Below are positions 219 to 9,655 of a stretch of 64,000 bases of DNA, in pieces. The stretch is taken from the NCBI GenBank assembly GCA_029782355.1, contig JAKOUY010000031.1, positions 1 through 64,000 on the forward strand. Direction: 5' to 3'. Below the pieces are notes generated by a model. It ran no database searches. It was not told the DNA's origin and was given only the letters and a program-made list of their open reading frames with translations. A program made the translations under genes and the position numbers. Every line of letters begins with the position of its first letter. Positions within the stretch are counted from its first letter, which is position 1. The DNA comes from Actinomycetes bacterium. GTDB lineage: Bacteria; Actinomycetota; Acidimicrobiia; Acidimicrobiales; Ilumatobacteraceae.

Positions 219-533
219 ATGGCACAGAGCATCCGCATCCGTCTCAAGGCGTTCGACCACGAGATCATCGATACCTCGACCCGCAAGATCGTCGAGACCG
301 TCACCCGCACGGCGGCGACCGTCCGCGGTCCCATCCCCCTGCCCACCGACAAGCACCGCTACACGGTGATCCGTGGGCCGCACATCGACAAGGACTCCCG
401 CGAGCACTTCGAGATGCGCGTCCACAAGCGGCTGATCGACATCATCGATCCCAACGCCAAGACCATCGACAGCCTGCAGCGCATCGAGCTGCCGGCCGGC
501 GTGGACATCGAGATCAAGATCCAGAACGTCTGA
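219..533 (+). CDS. rpsJ: Ribosomal protein S10
   Basis: The 104-residue product has the S10 landmarks: the [18 protein letters not shown] start, GPIPLPT, the [17 protein letters not shown] loop and the VDIEIKI end. S10 sits in the 30S head and is also the NusE factor in antitermination. The ATG at 219 gives the normal length; a longer reading frame open upstream overlaps tuf and is not needed. In most bacteria S10 begins the operon that continues with rplC. Here a strong hairpin follows at 540-576 and rplC is about 8.5 kb away, so rpsJ appears to be the last gene of a tuf transcript. Confidence 0.97.
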
Positions 534-576: not shown

Positions 577-1396
577 CCACCGAGCCGGCGGGCATTGCCC
601 CGGCAGCCTCGGCGCAGGCGTTCGGCTCGGCCAGCTGCGCCAGGGCGACGGCGTCGGCCGGCGAACGCTGCTCGCCGTTGCGCCACGCCGTCAGGAAGTC
701 CTGCGGCCAGACCTTGCCGCGACGAACCGCCCACTCGCTGGTGGGGCACATCCACGAGAACCCGACATGGGTGTGGCAGGCGCTGTTGCGGGCGTTGCCG
801 GTCTGGCCCATCACCCCGAGCACCGTTCCCGGATCGAGGCGCGTGCCGGGTCGGACCGCCACCGAATCGAGATGGGCGAAGTAGTACCGCACCCCATCGA
901 CGCCCTGCATCGAGACGAACTTGCCACCCCGGGTCGCCGGGTCGTTGACCGTCGGATCCCAGTGGTCCTCGGTGCTGACCTCGGCCACCACCCCGCTGGT
1001 CGGGGCGACGACGGTGGCCCCGCAGCCGAAGACGTCGATGGCCGGATAGTCGTGGTGGGTGGAGCCGAAGCTGACCCGCTTGCCGGTGAACGGGAACGTG
1101 TACACCGGCGTGATCGGCACGGTCGGGGCGAGGGTGCCGGCGGTCGTGGCAGTGCCCGTGTCGTGCGCACCGGTGGTACGGGGAGGCGGGCCGGTCGTGG
1201 CCGGCGCCGGAGCGGTCACGGTCGTGGAGCGGCTGACGATCGACGGCGGCGCCGACGCCGTCGAGGGTCGGGACGGTTCGGCCGACGTGCGATCCGACGA
1301 GCAGGAGCCCAGTGCGAGGGCCAGACCCAGCGGCACGACGAGACCGGCCGATCGCCCGATACGGCGGCGGGTGGCTCGCTCGGTGCTCGGGCCCAT
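563..1396 (-). CDS. Lipoprotein with M23 (LytM-like) peptidase domain
   Basis: The 277-residue protein starts with a basic stretch and a hydrophobic segment ending in a lipobox (LALGSC, Cys about residue 32), so it should be a lipid-anchored exported protein. A Ser/Thr/Pro/Ala-rich linker runs to about residue 100. The C-terminal half is an M23-type domain: THHDYPAIDVFG supplies a His and an Asp zinc ligand, and CHTHVGF gives the His-x-His pair. M23 enzymes cleave peptidoglycan cross-bridges or stem peptides; the substrate here is not predictable. The ATG at 1396 sits 6 nt after a TATGGT -10 element, so the mRNA is probably leaderless and shares its promoter region with the divergent gene at 1414. 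Confidence 0.8.
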   Translation of the reverse strand: MGPSTERATRRRIGRSAGLVVPLGLALALGSCSSDRTSAEPSRPSTASAPPSIVSRSTTVTAPAPATTGPPPRTTGAHDTGTATTAGTLAPTVPITPVYTFPFTGKRVSFGSTHHDYPAIDVFGCGATVVAPTSGVVAEVSTEDHWDPTVNDPATRGGKFVSMQGVDGVRYYFAHLDSVAVRPGTRLDPGTVLGVMGQTGNARNSACHTHVGFSWMCPTSEWAVRRGKVWPQDFLTAWRNGEQRSPADAVALAQLAEPNACAEAAGAMPAGSVADAG

Positions 1397-1413
1397 CGGA
1401 TTACCATACGGTC
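1397..1413. promoter_or_regulatory. Symmetric bidirectional leaderless promoter
   Basis: Only 17 bp separate the two divergent ATG codons. The plus strand reads TACCAT (1402-1407), 6 nt, ATG. The minus strand reads TATGGT (complement of 1403-1408), 6 nt, ATG. The two TANNNT -10 elements overlap by 5 bp in the palindrome TACCATA/TATGGTA and are equally spaced from their start codons, so transcription in both directions would start at or next to the A of ATG. Confidence 0.75.
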
Positions 1414-2490
1414 ATGATCCGGCGACGGGGGCGCACCATGGTGCTGCCCGTGGTGGCCATGCTGGTGGGAACCCTCGGTCAGACGGCTGCCGCCACCACC
1501 CTGCCGGCCACCTCGTGCGCGATGACCCCCGTGCCGCCGGCGGGATCACTGACCATCGTCCGTGACGGCCAGGTGCTCGAGCTCGACGGCGGCGTCGAGC
1601 GCTGCCTGCACCGGATCGGCCCCGACGAGGCCGGCCGGCCGGTGTGGTCGCCGGACGGGACCCGCCTGCTGCTGAACCCGGCCAGGATGCTGGCCGCCGA
1701 TGGCACGGTGGCGGACACCGGCTACCTGACGGCCAACGCCGGGGTGCACTGGTCGATGCCCACCGGCAAGTCGTTGATCGCCCCGGCCGTCAAGGATGGC
1801 CGTCTGCTGAAGCGCCTGGCCGGGAACGCCGCCAGCCGCCTGGACATCACCTTCGCCGAGCCGACCGATGCGGTCGCCTACCACCCGGCCGGCACGCACA
1901 TCTTCGCGTCCGGTGTCGGCCCACAGGGTCCGGGCCTGTACCTGGCGACGAATATCGGCAGGTCGCCGCGACTGCTCGCTGCGCTCCAGGACCCGGCGTC
2001 GCGCATCACCGAGATCGCCGCTCCGGTCGATGGCGCCTCGGTGGTGTTCGTCCACGACCACGGCGACCTGTCGCACCTCCATCGGCTGAGCCTGCCGGAC
2101 CTGACGTTGACCGATGCCGTGACCACTCCGTCGAAGCTCTCCCACGTGGTGCTCCTGGCGAGTGGTGACGTCGCCGTTCGCCAGGGGGACTGCGCCGGAC
2201 CGGGGACCACGGTGGTCAGCCGGGTCGACGGCTCGACACTCGACCTCGCCGGGGTGCTGCCCAGCACCTCCGTCCTGCCCGTCGGTGAGCTCGGCGGGCT
2301 GCTGGTGGTCGAGGTCCGTGATCCGGCGGTAGGTTGTGCCGGACCGGCCAGCGTGGCTCTCGTCGACCTGAACACCGAGCCACCGACGACGTCGACGGTG
2401 GCAGAGCTGGTCGACGCCGCCGCGGTCCGAGCGCCGACCCCGGCGGTGGGCGAGCTGCCGGGAGACATCAACTCCCAGGCGCCTGGTTGA
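1414..2490 (+). CDS. Secreted protein with TolB-like propeller motif, function unknown
   Basis: The product has 358 residues. The N-terminus (MIRRRGRTMVLPVVAMLVGTLG, then an Ala-rich cleavage region) is a signal peptide. A WSPDG motif near residue 70 (GRPVWSPDGTRLLL) is typical of TolB/WD40-type beta-propeller blades, and the rest is rich in short beta-prone segments with several scattered Cys that could pair outside the cell. No catalytic motif was recognised. The ATG at 1414 is chosen because it lies 6 nt after a TACCAT -10 element, which predicts a leaderless transcript. It is divergent from the M23 lipoprotein and may act with it in the envelope. Confidence 0.6.
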   Translation: MIRRRGRTMVLPVVAMLVGTLGQTAAATTLPATSCAMTPVPPAGSLTIVRDGQVLELDGGVERCLHRIGPDEAGRPVWSPDGTRLLLNPARMLAADGTVADTGYLTANAGVHWSMPTGKSLIAPAVKDGRLLKRLAGNAASRLDITFAEPTDAVAYHPAGTHIFASGVGPQGPGLYLATNIGRSPRLLAALQDPASRITEIAAPVDGASVVFVHDHGDLSHLHRLSLPDLTLTDAVTTPSKLSHVVLLASGDVAVRQGDCAGPGTTVVSRVDGSTLDLAGVLPSTSVLPVGELGGLLVVEVRDPAVGCAGPASVALVDLNTEPPTTSTVAELVDAAAVRAPTPAVGELPGDINSQAPG

Positions 2491-9019: not shown

Positions 9020-9655
9020 ATGGCACTACAAGCGATCGTTGGCGAGAAGCTCGCCATGAGCCAAGTGTGGGTCGACGACAAAGTCGTCCCCGTCACGGTG
9101 CTCCGCGTCGAGCCGGCGCGCATCGTGCAGGTCAAGACCACCGAGCGCGACGGCTACACCGCCCTGCAGGTCACCTACGGCACCAAGGATCCCAAGAAGC
9201 TCACCAAGCCCGAGGCCGGGCACTTCGCCACCGCCGGCGTCGAGCCGGGCCGCCGCCTCGTGGAACTGCGCCTCGACTCGGTCGACGGCTTCGAGGTCGG
9301 CCAGGAGATCACCGTGGACACCATCGCCCAGGGCACTCGCGTCGACGTGACCGCCGTCAGCCGGGGCAAGGGGTTCGCCGGTGGGATGAAGCGGCACAAC
9401 TTCGCCGGTCAGGGCGCCAGCCACGGCAACCACAAGCATCACCGCGCACCGGGTTCGATCGGCTCCTGCAGCTTCCCCGGCCGGGTGTTCAAGGGTCTGC
9501 GGATGGCCGGGCACATGGGTCACGAGCAGGTGACCACCCTCAATCTCGAGGTCGTCCAGGCCGACACCGAGCGCAACCTGCTGCTGGTCAAGGGTTCGGT
9601 CCCCGGACCCAACGGCGGCGTCGTCATCGTCCGCAACGCGGTCAAGGGGAAGTGA
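9020..9655 (+). CDS. rplC: Ribosomal protein L3
   Basis: The 211-residue protein matches L3 throughout: MALQAIVGEKLAMSQVW at the start, the central GKGFAGGMKRHNFAGQGASHGNHKHHRAPGSIG loop that reaches toward the peptidyl-transferase centre, and SVPGPNGGVVIVRNAVK at the end. The Gln in the GQGASHG loop is the residue methylated by PrmB in many bacteria. The first gene of this ribosomal cluster is L3, not S10. It is followed 2 bp later by rplD. Confidence 0.97.
   Translation: MALQAIVGEKLAMSQVWVDDKVVPVTVLRVEPARIVQVKTTERDGYTALQVTYGTKDPKKLTKPEAGHFATAGVEPGRRLVELRLDSVDGFEVGQEITVDTIAQGTRVDVTAVSRGKGFAGGMKRHNFAGQGASHGNHKHHRAPGSIGSCSFPGRVFKGLRMAGHMGHEQVTTLNLEVVQADTERNLLLVKGSVPGPNGGVVIVRNAVKGK

Follow-up and report, generated by a model that had tools for sequence, protein, structure and literature searches.

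The 17 bp that separate two divergent start codons in the window (by which we mean the whole 64,000 nt stretch that was analysed) probably constitute a bidirectional promoter of the 18-bp class, whose single −10 element would be shared by two leaderless mRNAs and whose two directions are likely to be independent at basal activity. The complete element (positions 1394–1416, CATCGGATTACCATACGGTCATG) consists of CAT (1394–1396), the 5 nt CGGAT, TACCATA (1402–1408), the 5 nt CGGTC and ATG (1414–1416). On the plus strand the putative −10 hexamer TACCAT (1402–1407) is followed by 6 nt (1408–1413) and then by the ATG at 1414, which makes A1414 the predicted +1. On the minus strand TATGGT (1408–1403) is likewise followed by 6 nt (1402–1397) and by an ATG (1396–1394), with the predicted +1 at 1396. 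A preliminary description of this DNA had read TACCATA as a −10 on both strands, each 6 nt from an ATG across a 17 bp gap, and this is borne out by the sequence. Its proposal that both genes start at or near the first base of the ATG is supported by sequence evidence for the predicted positions 1396 and 1414. The two hexamers have five of six base pairs in common, and the predicted +1 A residues are 18 bp apart from A to A, with 17 bp between the start codons. The intergenic region in its entirety (1397–1413) is an A+T-rich island, with 7 A or T residues in 1400–1409, while the surrounding DNA has a G+C content of about 71%. The ATG at 1396 opens a minus-strand frame of 277 aa, the M23 gene, and the ATG at 1414 a frame of 358 aa, here called the plus gene; third-position G+C is high in both.

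In the reading that we favour, the 17 bp gap would act as a bidirectional promoter for the housekeeping sigma factor, with one TANNNTA serving as the −10 in both directions. A1403 would be the −11A of the plus direction and pair with the −7T of the minus direction, the converse would apply to T1407, and T1402 and A1408 would be the direction-specific −12 positions. The reciprocal −11A/−7T pairing is present at A1403/T1407 in the overlapping hexamers of opposite strands, and each predicted +1A lies opposite a −18T of the other direction (T1396 for the plus and the complement of A1414 for the minus direction). RNA polymerase would occupy TANNNTA in only one of the two orientations at any moment, no −35 being recognisable, and would initiate either at A1414 or at the A residue of position 1396; since both positions are the first base of an ATG, both mRNAs would be leaderless. 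The actual start sites, the use in two directions and mutual exclusion at 1394–1416 are all things that we infer, and the plus direction appears to have better support than the minus direction. Between 1001 and 1800 the only TANNNT sequences are the two hexamers and an overlapping TACGGT (1407–1412). A two-hexamer sigma-70 scan of 1000–1900 gave no sites, which is uninformative for this element because the scan requires a −35.

The leaderless interpretation gains from the rest of the contig. We modelled 360 genes (90.7% coding, with a model seeded on codon-position G+C) on the 392,741 bp contig that starts with the window, and counted TANNNT at offsets −40 to −1, treating each in-frame ATG or GTG as a candidate start. 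The motif occurs at −12, −13 and −14 in 31, 28 and 20 genes respectively (79 of 360), and at every other offset in 0–5 genes each, except for −15 with 9. The commonest leaderless register on the contig is thus −12, and no −35 information was found in the aligned leaderless-type set of the contig. Going by this signature, the organism, probably a member of the Ilumatobacteraceae, would make leaderless mRNAs. The same features, a TANNNT whose first T is at −12 and no −35 information, are reported for actinobacterial leaderless genes in the available parts of two papers, one placing TANNNT about 12 bp upstream (PMC3160421) and the other describing it as the common −10 of Mycobacterium tuberculosis without an identified −35 motif (PMC3898074). 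As described there, the −10 belongs to one gene at a time, whereas here one −10 would serve two genes. The plus gene has a TANNNT ending 6–8 nt before its start codon in a genome that carries the same signature, which is our criterion for a leaderless gene. A −18T is found at only 5 of the 31 other leaderless promoters of the contig compared and is not enriched; its presence at 1394–1416 therefore follows from the geometry.

Homologues of the plus-gene protein (E ≤ 1e-20) were found in 15 of 221 family genomes, the own genome included. The set of loci compared, besides the window, comprised 18 loci: 16 from other family genomes, one paralogue from the same genome and one from another family of the order. 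A candidate start preceded by TANNNT at −12 to −14 is present in 11 of these 18 loci and was not found in the remaining 7; counting in a similar way on the contig gave 79 of 360 genes. For the M23 homologues, a TANNNT at leaderless distance was seen in 6 of 17 loci, one of them with an unlikely TTG start; in the window the motif is present. A relative of the M23 gene stands divergently beside the plus-gene homologue at two of the 18 loci (G013 and G017) and in tandem with it at one (G089, also designated L042); at the other 15, the flanks that were fetched did not reveal one. On the M23 side of the two divergent relatives no TANNNT is in register, the corresponding sequences being CACACT in G017 and AACGGT in G013. 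In G013, which belongs to the same family as the window and whose locus is identical to a record from an Ilumatobacteraceae bacterium, the start codons are 22 bp apart around a TACCGTT core. This core reads TACCGT on one strand and, in the symmetric register seen in the window, AACGGT on the other, so that the M23 direction lacks its −12T. The gap in G017 measures 56 bp; TACAGT occupies precisely the −12 register of the plus-gene homologue, and at −12 for the M23 gene the sequence is CACACT. The shared arrangement is thus roughly kept in one relative and absent in another, which has separate −10s. The leaderless start of the plus gene would appear to predate the sharing of its −10.

The element had been called almost perfectly symmetric. 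This holds for its functional letters but not for the sequence as a whole: 10 of the 23 positions match the reverse complement, and these are exactly CAT, TA, TA and ATG, while over 1374–1436 the match is 28 of 63. We considered a dyad operator for a dimeric regulator and rejected it, as no inverted repeat extends beyond the start codons and the TA...TA letters; confined in this way, the symmetry is that of a promoter and an operator is not indicated. TANNNT has a built-in A−11/T−7 symmetry, and these two positions pair when the starts are 18 bp apart. It follows that, given a 17 bp gap and one hexamer, the reverse hexamer needs only A1408 in addition, and an A is the next base in 6 of the 79 leaderless-type −10s of the contig. 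Much of the symmetry at 1394–1416 therefore comes cheap, and the unusual part is the 17 bp gap together with A1408.

The motif itself is scarce. TANNNT occurs 243 times on both strands of the 392,741 bp contig, where base composition would predict about 2,334; of these 243 copies, 172 fall in the 9.3% of the sequence that is outside modelled genes. TANNNTA occurs only 8 times, about 20-fold below the base-composition prediction. Three of the eight are in the gene-less 10 kb tail of the contig. For all of the remaining five, a start codon that opens a frame of 165 aa or more is located 12 or 13 nt from the first base of the motif, and only 1402–1408 has long in-register frames on both sides. 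The contig contains 50 divergent gene pairs, with a leaderless-type TANNNT on both sides in 7, on one side in 24 and on neither in 19. A shared TANNNT (or YANNNT) is found in just one of them, the M23/plus pair, and with the first base of the hexamer left free one further pair would share. Two other divergent pairs with 34 bp gaps (G000:C19 138222–138255 and 304137–304170) form another compact divergent layout: two leaderless-type −10s (TACAGT/TACAGT and TAGCCT/TAGCGT), at offsets −13 and −14, are placed back to back without overlap on either side of a GGCCCGG core. The tail (G000:C19 382412 to end) is about 10 kb without modelled genes and has 64% G+C; an ALIL pseudoknot (an IS3-type frameshift element) at L089:7842–7949 suggests mobile DNA.

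The complete pattern CATN5TANNNTAN5ATG occurs once in the own genome (3,785,116 bases, 98% complete) and in none of 100 dinucleotide shuffles of the window. That it arose by chance and has no promoter function is very hard to believe. With 0.09 sites per genome expected from base composition such an event would be rare yet possible, and two thirds of the reverse hexamer are dictated by the forward one. However, the observed density of TANNNTA lowers the expectation to 0.004, long frames open from both ATGs, and all five copies of this roughly 20-fold depleted motif outside the gene-less tail have a start codon at leaderless distance. A second candidate in the own genome, on contig C1 with 6/6 spacing, was dropped, as a 291-aa frame (TENA/THI-4 domain) faces one of 19 aa.

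Two further explanations would retain a promoter without the shared, doubly leaderless arrangement. In one of them, which we consider unlikely, TACCAT serves the plus gene alone, giving a leaderless mRNA, and TATGGT is a by-product of the symmetry of the hexamer and a chance A; the M23 gene would then depend on a promoter within the plus gene that lacks TANNNT or uses an alternative sigma factor. The distribution among relatives is in line with this (11 of 18 plus-gene loci with a leaderless-type −10 against 6 of 17 M23 loci), as is the low cost of the reverse hexamer, since two of its three determinants come free with the spacing and A follows 6 of 79 such −10s anyway; in addition, 27% of M. 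tuberculosis starts have no TANNNT according to the available text of PMC3898074. Nevertheless, the reverse hexamer is complete, the ATG that opens the 277-aa frame follows it at the commonest leaderless distance, and no further minus-strand TANNNT occurs in 1001–1800. Leadered transcripts, with the plus gene translated from an ATG at 1438 (a 24 nt leader counted from 1414) or with promoters farther upstream that would yield normal 5′ UTRs, seem improbable. The coding-score model did place the starts at 1438 and 1219, and a G-run precedes 1438. However, this model tends to pick starts that are too short: with every candidate start allowed, the counts at −12/−13/−14 go up from 18/16/16 to 31/28/20. 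A start at 1414 retains the arginine-rich N-terminus MIRRRGR, comparable to MRRRPAG in the G017 homologue, which also has a TANNNT at −12, and 1001–1800 offers no TANNNT beyond the two hexamers and TACGGT.

The shared bidirectional promoter would closely resemble a class described in other bacteria. In the available sections of a study by Warman et al. (2026, NAR; PMC12825309), 18 bp is the most frequent spacing of bidirectional promoters; the class itself goes back to Warman et al. (2021, Nat Microbiol), as cited by later papers. For Salmonella plasmids the accessible part of PMC10268837 describes the reciprocal −7T/−11A, with the +1A yielding a −18T on the opposite strand. The likeness extends to one shared −10, the −11A/−7T reciprocity, the +1A/−18T relation and predicted starts 18 bp apart. 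The difference is that at 1394–1416 the predicted starts are the first bases of ATG codons, so that both mRNAs would be leaderless, that there is no recognised −35, and that the case is known from sequence alone. A pair of adjacent divergent genes that both have mapped leaderless starts, prpD (Rv1130) and Rv1129c of M. tuberculosis, is listed in PMC3898074 as far as available; their starts, 1254630 and 1254510, are 120 bp apart and thus belong to separate promoters. In the titles and abstract openings listed for open-access papers that combine leaderless genes with promoters of the bidirectional or overlapping divergent type, we found no shared −10 with two leaderless genes. Both ingredients, the symmetric −10 and the leaderless mRNA, are known, and the twist here is their compact combination.

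The two genes had also been proposed to be coupled by competition, polymerase being able to load in only one direction at a time. The geometry would support steric exclusion, which is stated for bidirectional promoters in the available part of PMC12825309. Coupling is unsupported in the form in which it was put. The same study reports none for the five Escherichia coli bidirectional promoters tested at basal activity: this activity was too low for competition, knock-down of one direction barely affected the other, and competition emerged upon substantial activation of one direction. Basal expression of the M23 and plus genes would probably be independent, with competition setting in only once one direction is strongly activated. 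Joining a symmetric −10 and leaderless mRNAs in so small an arrangement leads to predictions for single bases: changes at T1402 or A1408 should each act on one direction, and changes at A1403 or T1407 on both. Without a leader or a recognisable −35, the element would be a near-minimal test of two questions: whether the letters of the start codon aid promoter recognition, and whether, in bacteria other than E. coli, steric competition has any weight when expression is at its natural level.

To assess how general the arrangement is, we scanned 200 family genomes for the symmetric pattern, accepting either ATG or GTG as start codon. Matches were found in 73 genomes at the 5/5 spacing (N5 on either side, as in the window), in 68 at 6/6, 21 at 4/4, 7 at 2/2 and 53 at 8/8. 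The 8/8 shift is itself an imperfect null, because 22 of its 53 genomes share one conserved site; 10 of these have other matches too, and removing the site leaves 41 genomes (hand count). A reversed-pattern control of the genome search often gave more matches than the pattern at 5/5; as it swaps TA for AT it is unfair as a null, and shifted spacings were used instead. The excess at leaderless spacing is clear versus closer spacings and modest versus the wider one. Among the loci fetched from the scan (one per genome, a subset of the matches), frames of at least 80 aa are present on both sides in 6 of 30 at 5/5, 8 of 30 at 6/6 and 1 of 21 at 4/4, corresponding to 4, 4 and 1 distinct pairs after merging orthologues; 21 of the 30 loci at 5/5 have such a frame on one side only.

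The clearest second case of a shared TANNNTA is a divergent pair in genus g22, which encodes an uncharacterised 210-aa protein and an Acyl_transf_3 protein and has the same 17 bp gap in three genomes of three species (L060 and L065, 1501–1523; L064, 816–838). Among 14 closer loci of the 210-aa protein, these 3 retain the 17 bp gap and TA...TA, with variation in one flank and an inner base. At three of the 14, from more distant genomes, the genes of the pair are 108, 109 and 123 bp apart and an SD-like stretch precedes the ATG (by eye); at eight the stretch that was fetched did not show the Acyl_transf_3 partner. The recurrence of the same spacing in three genomes would suggest that such an arrangement arises, persists for a time within a genus and is lost when the spacing changes. 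We put forward, tentatively and as somewhat less than an even proposition, that CAT-N5-TANNNTA-N5-ATG is a self-contained 23 bp module in which the start codons double as promoter parts. Each ATG would provide its own +1A and, on the opposite strand, the −18T of its partner, so that 23 bp would accommodate both promoters along with their start sites and the translation starts of both genes, and a change at the shared core bases 1403 or 1407 would alter both genes together. Two other sites from the scan may be mentioned. A divergent pair with 6/6 spacing and a TAGTTTA core (L114, L115 and L116, 1501–1525) is present in six g4 genomes among the matches listed; the three loci inspected have one frame of 298 aa and another of at least 501 aa. 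Furthermore, 22 g4 genomes (e.g., G029:C4:31898–31926) contain a conserved CAT-N8-TAGGATA-N8-ATG in which GGAGGT immediately precedes one ATG; here a shared −10 may give transcripts with short leaders instead of leaderless ones.

The products of the two genes had been referred to as envelope proteins. This is fair for the minus-strand gene (563–1396), a predicted secreted lipoprotein of 277 aa with a Peptidase_M23 domain (PF01551, E 5.6e-11) and a lipobox-like LGSC motif seen by eye. It is plausible for the plus gene (1414–2490), whose 358-aa product is predicted to be secreted and matched no Pfam or NCBIfam family; signal-like N-termini are visible by eye in both proteins. Against solved structures the plus-gene product gave one weak match (2ojh, E 0.011), and the protein is possibly TolB/propeller-like. 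The M23 gene is convergent with the preceding rpsJ (S10; window 219–533). The sole match of the genome to ribosomal protein L3 (PF00297), a partial one, is at 9311–9568, about 8.8 kb downstream on the same contig, and the usual order of the S10 operon thus looks interrupted.
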